Below are positions 4,713 through 49,959 of a stretch of 64,000 bases of DNA, in pieces. The position numbers and the translations under genes are program-made. The stretch spans positions 1 through 64,000 of the forward strand of contig NZ_JADYTX010000003.1 of the NCBI RefSeq assembly GCF_021531475.1. The letters run 5' to 3'. The notes below the pieces were generated by a model. It saw nothing but the letters and a program-made list of their open reading frames with translations, searched no databases and was not told the DNA's origin. Positions within the stretch are counted from its first letter, which is position 1; the number at the start of each line of letters is the position of its first letter. This DNA comes from Fusobacterium perfoetens (GTDB lineage Bacteria > Fusobacteriota > Fusobacteriia > Fusobacteriales > Fusobacteriaceae).

Positions 4713-4853
4713 TTTTTTGGATATATCCTTTCTAATTTTTTAAAAATCAGAGGAAATATCGTACTAATGAAGAAAAATAGATAAAATCAATAGGAAACTT
4801 TAAAAAGCATTTTTAAATTATGTGATATAACGCTTTCAAAAATAAATCAAAAA

Positions 4854-4880
4854 GGAGAATCTGCATAATGTAAATTCTCC
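4854..4880 (-). terminator. terminator of the M24 peptidase gene
   Basis: GGAGAAT (4854-4860) pairs with ATTCTCC (4874-4880), followed on the minus strand by TTTTTGATTT. Nothing else is recognisable in 4713-4954. Confidence 0.7.
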
Positions 4881-4954: not shown

Positions 4955-6349
4955 TTATTCAAAAGCTTTTTCTCTTACTTTTTCCACTTCTTCAGGATAT
5001 TTTACCATCTCTTCACCAAGTCTTCTATTTCCTGTCTTAGTTACTAAGAAATCTCCCTCATATCTCATTCCACCAAAGCCTATGTATTTTTCAAGCTCAT
5101 CATAATTTATATATTCTACAAATTTTTCTTCAATTTTCCATTGTTTGATTAGTTCTGGTATAAAATATATTCCCGGCTCAACAGTAAAGATAAAATCTTC
5201 CTCTAACTCTCTTCCAAGTCTTAAAGATGCTAAACCGAATTGTTCACTTTTAAATTGTCCATTATAACCAACTATAACTTCTCCGATATTTTCCATATCG
5301 TGAACATCTAACCCCATCATATGTCCTAGACCATGTGGCATAAATAAAGCATGAACACCTTTAGAAACTATCTCTTCTACATCACCTTTTAAAATATTTT
5401 TTTCCATTAATCCTTTAGTTAATACCTTACAAACTTCTAAATGAACCTCTTTATAAGTTATTCCCGGTTTTATAAGTTCGCTAGCTCTGTCAAACATAGA
5501 TATTAAAAGGTTATACATCTCTTTTTGTTCAGGAGTAAATTTTCCAGAAACTGGCATTGTAGTAGTCATATCCCCACAATATCCATTTTCAAGTTTTGCT
5601 CCAGCATCAATTAATAATAAATCCCCCTCTTTTAAAATATTGTTGTGGTTGTGGTTATGAAGTATTTGCCCATTGATTGTGCAAATAGTATGGAATGATG
5701 TGCCACAGTTGTAGCTTTTAGCAACTTTTTCTATCTCAGCCACCACTTCATATTCTTTCATTCCCGGTTTTGCCACTTCCATAGCTTTAAGATGCATCTC
5801 TCTTGTAATATTTACAGCTTTTTCTATCTCTTGAACCTCTTCAGGAGTTTTAAAGTTTCTTTGTTCTGCCACAGCATAACCTAAAGCATCTGAAGAATAT
5901 CTGTTGACTTCACTTGGTTTTATTCCAAACCACTCAGATAGTTTTAAAATATTTTCTGGTAAATATTGATTTATGTAGTGAACTCTTCTACCAGCATTTC
6001 TGGCATCTCTTAAATAGTTCCCTAACTCTTCATAAGGGAAAACATTGTCTACTCCAACTAATTTACATTGGTCAGCCAAAGTTATTTGTGGTCCTCCCCA
6101 AATTATATCATCTATTGTAAGCTCATTTCCAAAAATTATCTCTTGTTCTTTATCTATATCTATTATTCCCATAAGATTTTCTTTGTTCAAACCAAAGTAA
6201 TAAAGGAATGTTGAGTCTTGCACAAAAGGAAAAGCATTGTCAAGATAACTTGTTGGAGAAAGGCTATTCCCACAAATCAAAATAACTCCTTTTTCAAATT
6301 GATTTTTTAGTGCTAATCTTCTTTTCTCATAAGTTCTTCTTGAAAACAT
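4955..6349 (-). CDS. Xaa-Pro aminopeptidase (M24B metallopeptidase)
   Basis: Cytoplasmic di-metal aminopeptidase that removes an N-terminal residue preceding proline. It has an N-terminal AMP_N creatinase-type domain and a C-terminal pita-bread domain. Metal ligands are visible in order: LIDAGAKLENGYCGD, TTTMP, HGLGHMMGLDVHD, TVEPGIYF and GGMRYEGDFLVT. At 464 aa it is the usual length for PepP-type enzymes. It is transcribed alone, toward its own terminator at 4854-4880. Confidence 0.92.
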   Translation of the reverse strand: MFSRRTYEKRRLALKNQFEKGVILICGNSLSPTSYLDNAFPFVQDSTFLYYFGLNKENLMGIIDIDKEQEIIFGNELTIDDIIWGGPQITLADQCKLVGVDNVFPYEELGNYLRDARNAGRRVHYINQYLPENILKLSEWFGIKPSEVNRYSSDALGYAVAEQRNFKTPEEVQEIEKAVNITREMHLKAMEVAKPGMKEYEVVAEIEKVAKSYNCGTSFHTICTINGQILHNHNHNNILKEGDLLLIDAGAKLENGYCGDMTTTMPVSGKFTPEQKEMYNLLISMFDRASELIKPGITYKEVHLEVCKVLTKGLMEKNILKGDVEEIVSKGVHALFMPHGLGHMMGLDVHDMENIGEVIVGYNGQFKSEQFGLASLRLGRELEEDFIFTVEPGIYFIPELIKQWKIEEKFVEYINYDELEKYIGFGGMRYEGDFLVTKTGNRRLGEEMVKYPEEVEKVREKAFE

Positions 6350-18738: not shown

Positions 18739-18826
18739 GGAGGGTTAAACCTAATGGCAAGGTAGCTGTTTGCTAAACAGTGAGTAGGCGTAAGCCGTGT
18801 GAGTTCAAATCTCATATCCTCCTCCA
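18739..18826 (+). tRNA. phage tRNA-Ser (anticodon GCU)
   Basis: Acceptor GGAGGGT pairs with ATCCTCC. The anticodon stem GCTGT/ACAGT encloses loop TTGCTAA, anticodon GCU. The long variable arm contains the GGC-GTAA-GCC hairpin, the T arm is GTGAG/CTCAT, and CCA is encoded (18824-18826). Complete class II tRNA. Confidence 0.88.
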
Positions 18827-18829
18827 TAT

Positions 18830-18902
18830 GTGAATGTAGCTCAATTAGGGAGAGCATATACCTCGGAAGTATAGGTTGTAAGTTCAAATCTTACCATTCA
18901 CT
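18830..18902 (+). tRNA. phage tRNA, anticodon read as CGG
   Basis: Acceptor GTGAATG pairs perfectly with CATTCAC. D arm GCTC/GAGC, anticodon stem TATAC/GTATA with loop CTCGGAA, T arm GTAAG/CTTAC with TTCAAAT loop. The anticodon CGG formally specifies Pro(CCG), but position 37 is A and the discriminator is T, unusual for tRNA-Pro, so amino-acid identity is uncertain. CCA is not encoded. It begins 3 bp after tRNA-Ser. Confidence 0.75.
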
Positions 18903-26050: not shown

Positions 26051-26863
26051 TTGATAGAAAGAAAATTAAGGGTTGATTATATTTCTGTAAATGACATCAA
26101 GGAATATGAAAATAATGCTAAAGAACACCCAGATTGGCAAGTTGAACAAATAGCTAATTCAATCAGAGCTTTTGGATTTAACGACCCTTTGGCACTAGAT
26201 GAGGACAACCAAATAATTGAAGGGCACGGAAGATATTTGGCAGCAAAAAGAATGGCTATGAAAAAAGTTCCTTGTATATACTTGAAAGGTTTATCAGAAG
26301 ATGAAAAAAGAGCATACATTATTACTCATAACAAATTAACGATGAACACTGGATTTGATTTAGAGGTGTTAGAGTATGAACTAAACTCTTTAAAAGTACA
26401 AAACTTTGATTTAGGTCTAACTGGTTTCACAAATTCAGAACTTGATGATTTATTGGAAAAAAGCAAACAAGAACTTGAAGATTTTGAAACAGAAGAAAAA
26501 GATAGACTTGATAACGATTATTCATTAAAAATAGAAGCTCCAATTTATGAGCCTAAAAATGAGAAACCTGAAATCTCTGAAATGGTTGATTATACCAAAT
26601 ACAATCAACTTATCGAGGAGATAGAAAATAGAAAAGATATATCAGAAGAAGAGAAAAAGTTTTTAAAGTTCGCAGCAACAAGGCACATTGTATTCAACTA
26701 TGAAAAAATAGCAGATTATTATGCTAACTCTGATAAAAATACACAAGAATTAATGGAAAATTCAGCACTTGTAATAATTGATTTTGAAAAAGCTATTGAG
26801 AATGGTTTTGTTCAAATGTCTAAAGAGACAATGCAAGAGTTTGGAGCTGATTGTGATGAGTAA
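26051..26863 (+). CDS. ParB/Srx-domain protein (DNA modification cassette)
   Basis: 270 aa, TTG start with GGAGGTG 7 nt upstream. The N-terminal ParB-like domain (residues 4-135) contains IIEGHGRYLAAKRMA and YIITHNKLTMN. The C-terminal domain (RHIVFNYEKIADYYA ... LVIIDFEKAIENGFV) is one often found beside phage ParB-methyltransferase genes. Its N-terminal half is clearly paralogous to the 27739 protein. Not a partition protein: no helix-turn-helix or ParA. Role in DNA-base modification is inferred from neighbours. Confidence 0.82.
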   Translation: MIERKLRVDYISVNDIKEYENNAKEHPDWQVEQIANSIRAFGFNDPLALDEDNQIIEGHGRYLAAKRMAMKKVPCIYLKGLSEDEKRAYIITHNKLTMNTGFDLEVLEYELNSLKVQNFDLGLTGFTNSELDDLLEKSKQELEDFETEEKDRLDNDYSLKIEAPIYEPKNEKPEISEMVDYTKYNQLIEEIENRKDISEEEKKFLKFAATRHIVFNYEKIADYYANSDKNTQELMENSALVIIDFEKAIENGFVQMSKETMQEFGADCDE

Positions 26864-27734
26864 TGAAATAGATTGGAAAAAAGAAAAGTTCGCTATTTTT
26901 ATTCTTACTCACGGAAGACCTGACAATGTAGTTACGTATGACACCGTTAGACGACACGGATATACTGGAGAGATATATTTACTCATCGACAATGAGGATA
27001 AGATGGCAGACAGCTATTATGACAAATATGGTGATGAAGTAATTATGTTTGACAAACTAGCTATATCTAAAACTTTTGACCAAGCAGATAATTTTGAAGA
27101 TAGAAGAGCTATTGTTTATGCAAGAAATGCTGTATTTGATGTAGCTGAAAAATTAGGCTTAGACTATTTTATGCAACTTGATGATGATTATACAAGTTTT
27201 TCTATAAGAATAGATGAAAATAAAAATTTCACACATAAAAGTGTTAAAAATTTAGATAGACATATAAAAAGTTTATTAGATTTTTATAAAAAGGTCCCTA
27301 ACTTAAAAGCAATATCTTTCGCACAAGGTGGAGATTTTATTGGTGGAGTTAGTTGTTCTTTATTAAAAAGTAATCTAGCTAAAAGAAAATGTATGAACTC
27401 TTTCTTATGTTCGGTCCACAGAAAATTTACTTTCAAAGGTAGAATTAATGAAGATGTTAATACATATACTCACGAAGCTAGTAAGGGTATGTTATTTTTT
27501 ACATTCCCATTTGTAATGCTTAATCAAAAGGTAACACAAACAAATAATGGTGGAATGACTGACATATACAAAGCTAATGGAACTTATATAAAAAGTTTCT
27601 ACTCGGTATTGTTCCAACCCTCATCTGTAAAAGTTTCACTAATAAATGGTCCTAGTCAATCAAGAATACATCACAAAATAAAATGGGTCAATACTATTCC
27701 TCATATTATAAGTGAGATTTATAAGAAAAGGTGA
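26856..27734 (+). CDS. TET-associated-type glycosyltransferase (GT-A)
   Basis: 292 aa from ATG 26856 (MSNEIDWKKEKF), overlapping the ParB gene by 8 bp; a frame open from 26778 is less likely. Family features: FAIFILTHGRPDNV at the N-terminus, YLLIDNEDK, and the metal-binding LDDDY near residue 120. This matches the TAGT family, predicted to glycosylate modified bases in phage DNA. No TET/JBP oxygenase or hydroxymethylase is seen in the window, so the acceptor is unknown. Confidence 0.75.
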   Translation: MSNEIDWKKEKFAIFILTHGRPDNVVTYDTVRRHGYTGEIYLLIDNEDKMADSYYDKYGDEVIMFDKLAISKTFDQADNFEDRRAIVYARNAVFDVAEKLGLDYFMQLDDDYTSFSIRIDENKNFTHKSVKNLDRHIKSLLDFYKKVPNLKAISFAQGGDFIGGVSCSLLKSNLAKRKCMNSFLCSVHRKFTFKGRINEDVNTYTHEASKGMLFFTFPFVMLNQKVTQTNNGGMTDIYKANGTYIKSFYSVLFQPSSVKVSLINGPSQSRIHHKIKWVNTIPHIISEIYKKR

Positions 27735-46628: not shown

Positions 46629-47777
46629 ATGGCAGATTATACACAAAATACAAAAGCGAATTTACCACATTTAAGTCAATCTTATTCATCACCTTTTGAT
46701 AGTCACCCTGTCTTTTCTCAAATCGGAGGGTGGGTATGTGATGAAAATACGGCTGATTTAAAATATAAACTAAATAAAACAGATTGGAGTAAAAAAGCAG
46801 ACGGAAGTCCATCTAATCTTGATGGAACAGACGGAGATGTTATGGTTAAAGTTCCTGCTTTCTTTATGAAAGTTACTAGAATGCCTAATGGAAAACCAAA
46901 ATTTGAAATTGACGACATAATTCCTGATGAATTTGGAAGCAATGGAAAGCCTGGATTCTTCGTTCACCCTGCGTTTAAAATGAGTAATGGGAAAGTAAGA
47001 CCATATTTTTTATGGGGAGCATATCCTGCATTTGAAAAAAGTGGAAAATTAAGAAGTATATCAGGTGTTCTTCCAACTACATCAAAAAACAAAGGAGATT
47101 TCAGAGATTTAGCTAGACAAGGTAGAAATACAGACTATGATATTTCTTCTGTATTTGAGAGAGTAGCTATACAAATATTATTTTACACTGAATTTGGTAC
47201 TTTAGATTCTCAAACAGCTTGTGGAAATGGGATAGTTAATATGACTTGGGAATCAGGAACAGGAGCAGAACAAAATCAAAGAATAACTGGAGGAAGTGAT
47301 GCTCTAGGAGATAGAAGTGGTTATTTAGAAAATGGAGCATACAAAAATGGTAAATGTTCCGTAAGATATAGAGGAATTGAAGATTTATGGGGGAATGTTT
47401 ATAACTTTTTAACTGGGATAATGGTTACTGATAAAGGGTGGCATTATACAAATGAACATTCTAAAATGGACACAATTTCTTCAATGACACTATATGCTAA
47501 AGATTTAAAAGAAAAAGTTCCTAATGGATATATTTCAGATATGGAATACCCAGTAGGTGCCGAATGGTTATTTTTACCTAAAACTACTGGAGGGTCAGCT
47601 ACTACTTATTTCTGCGACTACTATTATACACACGACCCAGGCGAAGAAAACGTACTGCTTGCCGGTGGTCATTGGGACAGTGGCTCTTTTGCAGGGCTTG
47701 CGTATTGGAATTGCCCTAATGTCGCTTCGACTTCGGGTGTGAGTCTCGGTGCTCGCTTGTCTTGGGCAAAGCAATAG
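46629..47777 (+). CDS. DGR target: C-type-lectin-fold tail adhesin with variable C-terminus
   Basis: 382 aa, presumed receptor-binding protein. The C-terminal half has FGE-sulfatase/C-lectin signatures (YRGIEDLWGNVYNFLTG, YPVGAEWLFLP, AYWNCPNVASTS). The VR covers residues 342-377 of 382. Twelve residues differ from the template: 345, 348, 350, 351, 354, 358, 363, 370, 372, 373, 375 and 376. N-terminal part carries WVCDENTADLKYKLNKTDW and FFMKVTRMPNGKPKF. RBS AGGAGG. The gene ends 73 bp before the TR. Confidence 0.9.
   Translation: MADYTQNTKANLPHLSQSYSSPFDSHPVFSQIGGWVCDENTADLKYKLNKTDWSKKADGSPSNLDGTDGDVMVKVPAFFMKVTRMPNGKPKFEIDDIIPDEFGSNGKPGFFVHPAFKMSNGKVRPYFLWGAYPAFEKSGKLRSISGVLPTTSKNKGDFRDLARQGRNTDYDISSVFERVAIQILFYTEFGTLDSQTACGNGIVNMTWESGTGAEQNQRITGGSDALGDRSGYLENGAYKNGKCSVRYRGIEDLWGNVYNFLTGIMVTDKGWHYTNEHSKMDTISSMTLYAKDLKEKVPNGYISDMEYPVGAEWLFLPKTTGGSATTYFCDYYYTHDPGEENVLLAGGHWDSGSFAGLAYWNCPNVASTSGVSLGARLSWAKQ
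47654..47758 (+). repeat. DGR variable repeat (VR)
   Basis: 105 bp aligned without gaps to the TR at an offset of 197. Sixteen mismatches, every one at a template A: ten A to G, four A to C, two A to T. Two are silent. Non-A positions (about 77) are all identical. Confidence 0.97.
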
Positions 47778-47806
47778 CACAAAAGCAGTAGCACAAGCAA
47801 AGCAAT
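47766..47806 (+). repeat. direct repeats just after VR
   Basis: GCAAAGCAAT at 47766-47775 and 47797-47806; TAGCACAA at 47775-47782 and 47789-47796. They follow the VR, where DGR homing signals lie, but are not the usual inverted repeat. Confidence 0.6.
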
Positions 47807-47850
47807 TTTTTAAATGAAATATAGGTTGAATTACTTATACCGAAAAAGAC

Positions 47851-47955
47851 ACTACTTACCGGTGGTAATTGGAACAATGGCTCTAATGCAGGACTTACGT
47901 ATTGGAATTGCAATAATGTCGCTTCGACTTCGAGTGTGAATATCGGTACTCACTT
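47851..47955 (+). repeat. DGR template repeat (TR)
   Basis: Non-coding donor copy of the VR, read as RNA and copied by the reverse transcriptase. In the VR frame it is rich in AAY codons, which gives maximum amino-acid range when A is mutated. It continues to a stop in that frame but has no start. The invariant GTCGCTTCGACTTCG block (47918-47932) is the most GC-rich part. Confidence 0.96.
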
Positions 47956-47995
47956 TATGTCTTAAAATTCAAATAAAAATTATAGTGATTTGACC

Positions 47996-48009
47996 TTGCC
48001 ACTTGGCAA
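47996..48009 (+). repeat. small hairpin between TR and RT
   Basis: TTGCC-ACTT-GGCAA, 41 bp after the TR core. It may be part of the TR RNA 3' structure needed for priming; that role is inferred. Confidence 0.45.
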
Positions 48010-48108
48010 AACATAAGAAAAACGTTGATAAATGTGTTAGTAGATATAATATCGAAAACTCGTTAATTTTTCCAAGACAAACTATATCAACAAGAAAAGA
48101 GGTTATCA

Positions 48109-49164
48109 ATGAAAAGAGTAGGTAATGTGTGGGATAAAATAATCTCATATGAAAATTTAATGAATGCTCATTTAAGAGCTAGTAAAGGCAAAGGGCATTA
48201 TAAAGAAGTTATAAGGGTTAATGAGAATCCTGAACATTTTATCAAGAATCTTAGATTTTTACTTGCTAATAAAATTTATTATATCAATTATAGTGATTAT
48301 AAAATGGAAACCATAGATGATAAAGGGAAACAAAGAGATATATATAAATTATCCTATTACCCTCATAGAATAGTGCAATGGGCAGTAGCTCTTCAAGTAG
48401 AGGATAGATTTTTAAAGAACTTAATACACGATACTTATTCCAGTATAAAAAACAAAGGTATAATTTTAGGTGTAAAAAGAATTAAAAAAGCCTTAAAAAA
48501 TGAAGAAGAAACTAGATATTGCCTAAAACTTGATATGAAGAAATATTATCCCTCAATAGATAATTATATCTTATTTGATATTATAGAAACACTAATAAAA
48601 GATAGGGAATTGTTAGAATTATTAAGAATGATAATATTTAGTTACGGAATTAAAGGGCAACCTATTGGCTCATTATTATCTCAATGGTTTGGAAATTTGT
48701 ATTTATCTAAATTGGACCATTACATAAAAGAGAATTTAAAAAGTAAATGGTATTTCAGATATTGTGATGATATTGTATTATTAGGAAGCTCCAAAGAAGA
48801 TTTAAGAAAAAAATTAAGATGTATAGAGATAGTAGCACAAGAAAAATTAAATCTAACTATCAAAGAGAATTTTCAGATTTTTCCTGTCAGGACTAGAGGA
48901 ATAGATTTTTTAGGATATCGTTTCTTTGGAGAATACACTTTATTAAGAAAAAAGATATTAAAGAAAATGAAAAAGAAATTAGTACCACTTCAAGATAAGA
49001 ATATTTTAACTAATTCAGATAATAGTGCTATATGCTCATATAAAGGTTGGTTAAAGTATTGTGATAGTTATAGGCTATGGGAAAAATATTTTACACCATT
49101 AAAAGATAAATATTATATATGTGAAAAAGGTTATAAAAGGAGAGTGAACATATGTTTAAAATAG
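48109..49164 (+). CDS. DGR reverse transcriptase
   Basis: 351-aa RNA-dependent DNA polymerase of the group II intron/retron-like DGR clade. Motif A CLKLDMKKYYPSID (Asp 142), the DGR-typical IGSLLSQ at 186-192, catalytic YCDD at 218-221, and LGYRFF in the thumb region. No maturase or endonuclease domain. RBS AAAAGAGG before ATG. The TR lies 150-260 bp upstream on the same strand, the usual DGR order. Confidence 0.96.
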   Translation: MKRVGNVWDKIISYENLMNAHLRASKGKGHYKEVIRVNENPEHFIKNLRFLLANKIYYINYSDYKMETIDDKGKQRDIYKLSYYPHRIVQWAVALQVEDRFLKNLIHDTYSSIKNKGIILGVKRIKKALKNEEETRYCLKLDMKKYYPSIDNYILFDIIETLIKDRELLELLRMIIFSYGIKGQPIGSLLSQWFGNLYLSKLDHYIKENLKSKWYFRYCDDIVLLGSSKEDLRKKLRCIEIVAQEKLNLTIKENFQIFPVRTRGIDFLGYRFFGEYTLLRKKILKKMKKKLVPLQDKNILTNSDNSAICSYKGWLKYCDSYRLWEKYFTPLKDKYYICEKGYKRRVNICLK

Positions 49165-49427
49165 ACAAAGAAAACAGAAAAATAATAATTACTGATGAAG
49201 TTTCAAGAAAAGTTATAGAAATTAGAGAGGGAGAAGCTTTAAATAGAAAGTTTTTAGAGGGAACACAAGACAAATATAAATGTATCTTAAAACTCATCGA
49301 AGTAGACATTGTAGACCCTAAGACTGGAGAAAAAACAGGAAATAAAGAAACAAAGGCATTCGCTCAAAGAGAAAATAACGAGGGTTGGTTAATGGAGTTT
49401 GTGGAAGAGGAATACAATTACGCATAA
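49152..49427 (+). CDS. hypothetical small phage protein
   Basis: 91 aa, overlapping the RT end by 13 bp. Beta-rich, acidic. No resemblance to Avd accessory proteins (which are basic helical bundles). Confidence 0.55.
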   Translation: MFKIDKENRKIIITDEVSRKVIEIREGEALNRKFLEGTQDKYKCILKLIEVDIVDPKTGEKTGNKETKAFAQRENNEGWLMEFVEEEYNYA

Positions 49428-49440
49428 GGAGATGTAAAAA

Positions 49441-49959
49441 TTGGAAAAAATTTTCAAGAATATTAAAGAAAATATATCTTATTTTACAAATGAAAATGAT
49501 TCTTGTGAAACTATAATAAATAAAATAGTTAAAAAATTAAAAGAAAACAATGTTACTTTAGAGGTTGGAGATTATGAAATTTTAGAGTTTGGAGAAAACT
49601 TCTCGAAAGTAAATTTTAAAATCAAAATACAAAACTTAGAGAATATCAAAGAAGAAAATATAGATTTGATATTACCAAATAATTCTTTTTATGATTGTTT
49701 GGTTAAAAGTTTTAAAAGAGTTACTGAATTGTATATCATAAAAACTTTTAAAATAGAAAAATCACCTAATACTGAAAAAGAGGGTATCACAGATAAGCAA
49801 AGAAGTTTTATAGAGGATAAAATGAAATATAATTCTCAGGTAATAGAGAAAGAACTTGATAAAATGCAGGTATCATCTATAAAAGAGCTTACAAAGGCTC
49901 AAGCTTCACAAATTATTACTTTTATTCAAGGTAATAAACATAGAAGTAAAGAATTTTAA
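49441..49959 (+). CDS. protein with recombination-protein-like C-terminus, next to DGR
   Basis: 172 aa, TTG start with AAGGAG. The C-terminal TDKQRSFIEDKMKYN ... SIKELTKAQASQIITFI pattern is that of the small C-terminal helical module seen on phage annealing and replication proteins. The N-terminal part is unassigned. Unusual position among tail/lysis genes, directly after the RT unit; a DGR helper role is speculative. Confidence 0.5.
   Translation: MEKIFKNIKENISYFTNENDSCETIINKIVKKLKENNVTLEVGDYEILEFGENFSKVNFKIKIQNLENIKEENIDLILPNNSFYDCLVKSFKRVTELYIIKTFKIEKSPNTEKEGITDKQRSFIEDKMKYNSQVIEKELDKMQVSSIKELTKAQASQIITFIQGNKHRSKEF

Follow-up and report, generated by a model that had tools for sequence, protein, structure and literature searches.

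We analyzed a 64,000-nucleotide stretch of Fusobacterium perfoetens DNA (hereafter the window) and found a phage diversity-generating retroelement (DGR) whose pair of repeats carries the pattern expected of mutagenesis at template adenines, a reading to which we assign a probability of about 96%. The element is an ordinary, clean example of a known system. Its variable repeat (VR) occupies the 3'-terminal part of an intact target ORF, which ends 19 bases past the repeat, and its template repeat (TR) is intergenic and close to the start of a reverse transcriptase (RT) gene at 48109; the parts of the window's cassette described below are all on the forward strand. The surrounding genes are those of a prophage and include a CI-like repressor, a helicase, the large terminase, the portal and tape measure proteins, and an M15 endolysin.

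The VR (47654..47758) and the TR (47851..47955) align without gaps over 105 bp at an offset of 197. Our re-alignment gave 16 mismatches, all of them at TR adenines, where the VR has G (10 cases), C (4 cases) or T (2 cases). The TR contains 28 A and 77 non-A positions, and the VR was identical to it at 77 of the 77 non-A positions. If the 16 mismatches were placed at random, the probability of their all falling on the 28 adenines would be 9.7e-12. The original prediction, made from the letters alone, had described this pattern correctly, including the 10, 4 and 2 split of the substitutions, the roughly 77 unchanged non-A positions and the statement that random divergence would not do this; no mismatch at a template C, G or T was found inside the 105 bp. 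Its count of altered residues also agreed with ours: 14 codons are changed, 12 of them altering the residue and 2 silently, and the silent changes are likewise at A. One amendment concerned the extent of the repeats, as the ungapped alignment is correct within the 105 bp while the full homology extends further 3' with one indel. The TR itself is noncoding, and the interval between the target gene and the RT gene (47778–48108) contains no open reading frame (ORF) of at least 80 aa on either strand.

Two similar repeats separated by 197 bp, with most of the changes altering residues, could also be the product of an ordinary duplication that has diverged by random mutation or under selection for amino-acid change. 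We give this explanation practically no credence, considering the improbability of every mismatch falling at A by chance, the two silent changes likewise found at A, the RT gene and spacer RNA adjoining the repeats, and the recurrence of this pattern across 43 related cassettes. The direction of change does not follow from mismatches by themselves, and the 16 differences, all with A in one copy, could also be written in the reverse direction, the noncoding copy being derived from the VR and changed toward A. This would require G, C and T all to have been converted to A and nothing else to have happened; moreover, in four related cassettes as well, the A-rich copy lies between genes, adjoining the RT-17 spacer and the RT as in known DGRs, and we consider the reversed direction hardly credible.

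The homology beyond the 105 bp concerns the 3' edge of the repeats. There, the TR contains an extra TAT at 47956-47958, after which both copies read GTCTT (VR 47759-47763, TR 47959-47963). The 3' end of the VR (GTGCTCGCTT GTCTT; 47747..47763) is IMH-like in character, and the TR edge with the insertion (47956..47963) is IMH*-like. Two of the related cassettes have an insertion at the same place ahead of the common GTCTT, its length being 3 nt in the window, 4 nt in L020 and 1 nt in L028. Just inside the repeat end, ACTCAC in the TR corresponds to GCTCGC in the VR, identically in the window, L020 and L028. Because the two A-to-G differences, at TR positions 47948 and 47952, recur in both relatives, they were probably fixed at the end of the repeat and do not belong in the count of changes due to activity. 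A similar tendency was seen across 43 cassettes, in which the changed fraction of TR adenines reached 0.83 within the final ten bases, compared with 0.51-0.62 at positions 20-89 from the end. Comparison of the repeats suggests that the terminal differences were fixed as an IMH/IMH* pair or through selection on the conserved G-A-R-L residues, rather than by fresh mutagenesis; with the two sites set aside, about 14 of the 16 changes bear on activity as likely products of mutagenesis. Downstream of the VR, a search for a GC-rich hairpin like that of Bordetella phage BPP-1 yielded nothing closer than a 6-nt inverted repeat whose arms lie 32 nt apart, and the folding of the region was no better than that of shuffled sequences (z -0.62).

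A search of 96 genomes of the order yielded three cassettes with RTs 55-66% identical (L020, L028 and L029), and IMG/VR supplied 80 more distant loci; TR/VR pairs were detected automatically in most of the loci that had enough flank. Pooled over 43 distinct related cassettes, 831 of the 850 mismatches were at a TR adenine; the scan for repeats prefers adenine differences by design, however, and this purity is therefore no independent proof of the mechanism. The types of change are informative: the A>G share was 61% (505 of 831) in the 43 cassettes and 62% (10 of 16) in the window, and the published share for the BPP-1 system rebuilt in E. coli is 59.3% (PMC12875486). Among the loci collected, L032 appears to have one template (TR 6146-6276) serving two VRs: in the first (5382-5512) all 17 differences are at A, and in the second (4731-4861) 21 out of 22 are. 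The spacer between the TR and the RT of L112 (4678 to 5000) contains an apparent second TR-like sequence, which may represent tandem templates.

The window and its three closest relatives allow past copying from TR to VR to be read from concerted evolution. When each VR was compared with its own TR, the non-A differences inside the repeat numbered none in the window, none in L028, two in L020 and one in L029. Between the four cassettes, in contrast, 16-21 of the roughly 75 non-A positions are different when TRs are compared, and the VRs diverge to the same extent. The VR thus tracks its own TR at non-A positions, from which it follows that copying continued after the cassettes split. At the level of sequence comparison, this establishes repeated TR-to-VR copying in the past of this DGR. 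The original prediction had argued from the mismatch pattern that the element must have been active after the TR acquired its current sequence; concerted evolution of the repeats in four cassettes supports the claim as far as past activity is concerned, and we regard the comparative argument as the stronger of the two. The same four-cassette set also serves to separate the likely products of mutagenesis from the fixed differences at the 3' end.

A DGR that was once active could now be dead, with the VR preserved as a frozen copy of the last homing event. A single VR state was seen, an exact search of the viral-contig collection with the first 39 TR bases returned no second isolate with a changed VR, and the BPP-1-like hairpin is missing after the VR, all of which fit such an ending. 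Nevertheless, the RT and target ORFs are intact, the TR and the VR moved together after the related cassettes split, and the non-A positions are still identical at 77 of 77, implying little ordinary mutation since the last copying. On balance, we consider a dead element unlikely, if a possibility of some weight, and regard a DGR that may still be active as the better reading.

The target gene (46629..47777) encodes a 382-aa phage tail protein, matching phrog_5302 (tail protein) with an E-value of 5.7e-70. Sequence searches alone found no solved relative, and we predicted the structure with AlphaFold2 using 23 aligned relatives (pLDDT 84, pTM 0.89). The best structural match to the model was TaqVP (5vf4), with a Z score of 26.8 over 272 aligned residues at 22% identity, followed by TvpA (2y3c; Z 14.2), relatives of the formylglycine-generating enzyme and Mtd of BPP-1 (1yu0; Z 12.2). 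The predicted fold is of the C-type-lectin/FGE-like type, resembling the DGR variable proteins TaqVP, TvpA and Mtd, and has the variable tip in the C-terminal part. C-type-lectin folds are common among DGR targets, though not all targets have them. Elsewhere in the prophage region, we observed two adjacent tRNA genes (18740-18902) and an ORF (26778-27734) matching phrog_842, a family labeled as beta-glucosyl-HMC-alpha-glucosyltransferase; the ORF might be a DNA-modification gene or its family mislabeled.

The RT gene (48109..49164) is intact and encodes 351 aa with matches to RVT_1 (1.7e-13) and phrog_1423 (3.9e-97). The protein contains the SQ motif IGSLLSQ and the catalytic motif YCDD and, in a midpoint-rooted tree of 29 rows, groups with the DGR RT of crAssphage LMMB and with viral loci, apart from BPP-1, L030, L031 and L019. 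This grouping apart from BPP-1 and the two Avd-bearing RTs (L030 and L031) received support of 100/99. As the authors describing crAssphage LMMB placed it in the Avd-less lineage 3 (PMC7290462), the RT sequence assigns the cassette of the window to the Avd-less lineage-3 phage DGRs, an assignment that runs through LMMB only and not through the original set of Wu et al. The gene content agrees with this. No ORF of at least 80 aa lies between the target and the RT, and no match to Avd, a four-helix protein, was found among the ORFs of the cassette. The Pfam model for bAvd had no match in the source genome, in a search in which no control genome matched either; the same model recognizes Avd in two other DGRs of the order, L030 and L031.

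The spacer between the TR and the RT contains a structured RNA, RT-17 (RF03020), at 47992..48084. The covariance model matched at full length (model positions 1-95) and above the gathering threshold (46.2 bits against 40.4). RT-17 was also found in the TR–RT interval of L020, L028 and L029 and in 10 of the 14 further loci of the lineage tested, and within the order it occurs only in the four genomes carrying this cassette. For the RT-17 region, RNAalifold predicted just one 4-bp hairpin, in which one pair has both partners changed in 3 of 19 loci. The BPP-1 spacer brings in the RT together with Avd and provides the adenine used for priming (PMC12875486); by analogy, the RT-17 spacer would recruit the RT and initiate synthesis of the cDNA.

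Two other Rfam families with similar names were found at comparable places. RT-14 is located directly 3' of the TR in the Avd-bearing L030 (6890-7031, minus strand) and in L019 (5164-5312), while RT-18 is found upstream of the RT in Lactobacillus phage LBR48 (L129, 702-777). Judged by their positions, the three Rfam "RT" RNAs (RT-17, RT-14 and RT-18) are linked to DGRs. None of the papers searched names RT-17. Tying RT-17, in an Avd-less system, and RT-14, beside an Avd-bearing RT, to DGR template spacers should aid the finding of DGRs and help test how cDNA starts in Avd-less RTs. This spacer-RNA link and two ORFs downstream of the RT are the parts that deserve closer study.

The first of these ORFs, of 91 aa (49152..49427), overlaps the RT stop and the second, of 172 aa (49441..49959), follows it. 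Both travel with the cassette: among the 96 genomes, they were present only in the four containing it, besides one truncated contig-edge fragment resembling the 172-aa ORF (G013), and we detected no homologues beyond the four cassettes in the viral-contig collection or in phage records. The 91-aa protein was modeled with confidence (pLDDT 91) as an all-beta structure, and the model had no significant fold match in the PDB or BFVD. In an all-against-all comparison of proteins from sampled neighboring genes, the target domain, the RT and the 91-aa and 172-aa proteins were common to all four loci. Of the flanking genes, none was in common with L020, and among the other three loci sharing was partial and confined to the gene that immediately precedes the target. 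The module being shared and its flanks not, it has moved as a block between unlike phages.

The distribution of the companion ORFs is also that of the target domain, so that a link with the RT and a link with the tail protein are indistinguishable. Roles in tail assembly or as chaperones are at least as likely as accessory roles in the DGR. It seems doubtful that the two proteins are accessory factors of an Avd-less DGR, such as nucleic-acid or RT cofactors doing the job of Avd, and not passengers serving tail assembly; if they did turn out to be cofactors, they could help explain how DGRs of this kind work without Avd. Many viral lineage-3 cassettes have an ORF of ~97 aa ("KFSDF...") near or overlapping the RT stop (L083 6053-6340, L122 5948-6247 and ten others), possibly a DGR companion gene. 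Two of its members were scanned and had no Pfam match, and one matches phrog_19665 (function unknown). A relationship between this ORF and the 91-aa protein was rejected (hhalign probability 0.1).

By analogy with BPP-1, the element would work through a transcript that spans both TR and RT-17 spacer. Recruited by the spacer RNA, the RT would copy the TR and insert random bases opposite its adenines, and the resulting cDNA, guided by the sequence at its 3' end, would then replace the VR in the terminal part of the gene for the tail protein, with the TR itself staying unchanged throughout. The outcome would be a phage tail with varied C-type-lectin tips, presumably binding receptors.

Among known systems, crAssphage LMMB (PMC7290462) resembles the window in the order of target/VR, TR and RT, the lack of avd, the RT clade, the C-type-lectin tail target and the adenine-specific differences. 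It is nevertheless a phage of another type and host, the two RTs being only 39% identical, and the LMMB stretch has no Rfam match whereas the spacer of the window is RT-17. The 91-aa and 172-aa companions similarly set the window and its relatives apart, as searches of the phage and viral-contig collections did not find them. L030 and L031, from the same bacterial order, share the DGR layout and the adenine-specific TR/VR pairs with the window but carry a protein of the bAvd family, and the spacer of L030 is RT-14, not RT-17. The differences from BPP-1 are that BPP-1 carries Avd between the target and the TR, where the window cassette has none that we could find, and that its VR is followed by a GC-rich hairpin (PMC3240598), whereas no GC-rich hairpin of that type, with 7-10 bp and a GRNA loop immediately behind the VR, was found in the window. 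In other respects, the two systems agree: in both, the repeats involve the terminal part of a gene for a tail protein, mutagenesis is directed at adenines, a spacer separates the TR from the RT, the RT motifs are of the forms IGSLxSQ and YxDD, and the target folds are related (Mtd, Z 12). The solved structure closest to the target of the window is TaqVP of Thermus aquaticus (5vf4).
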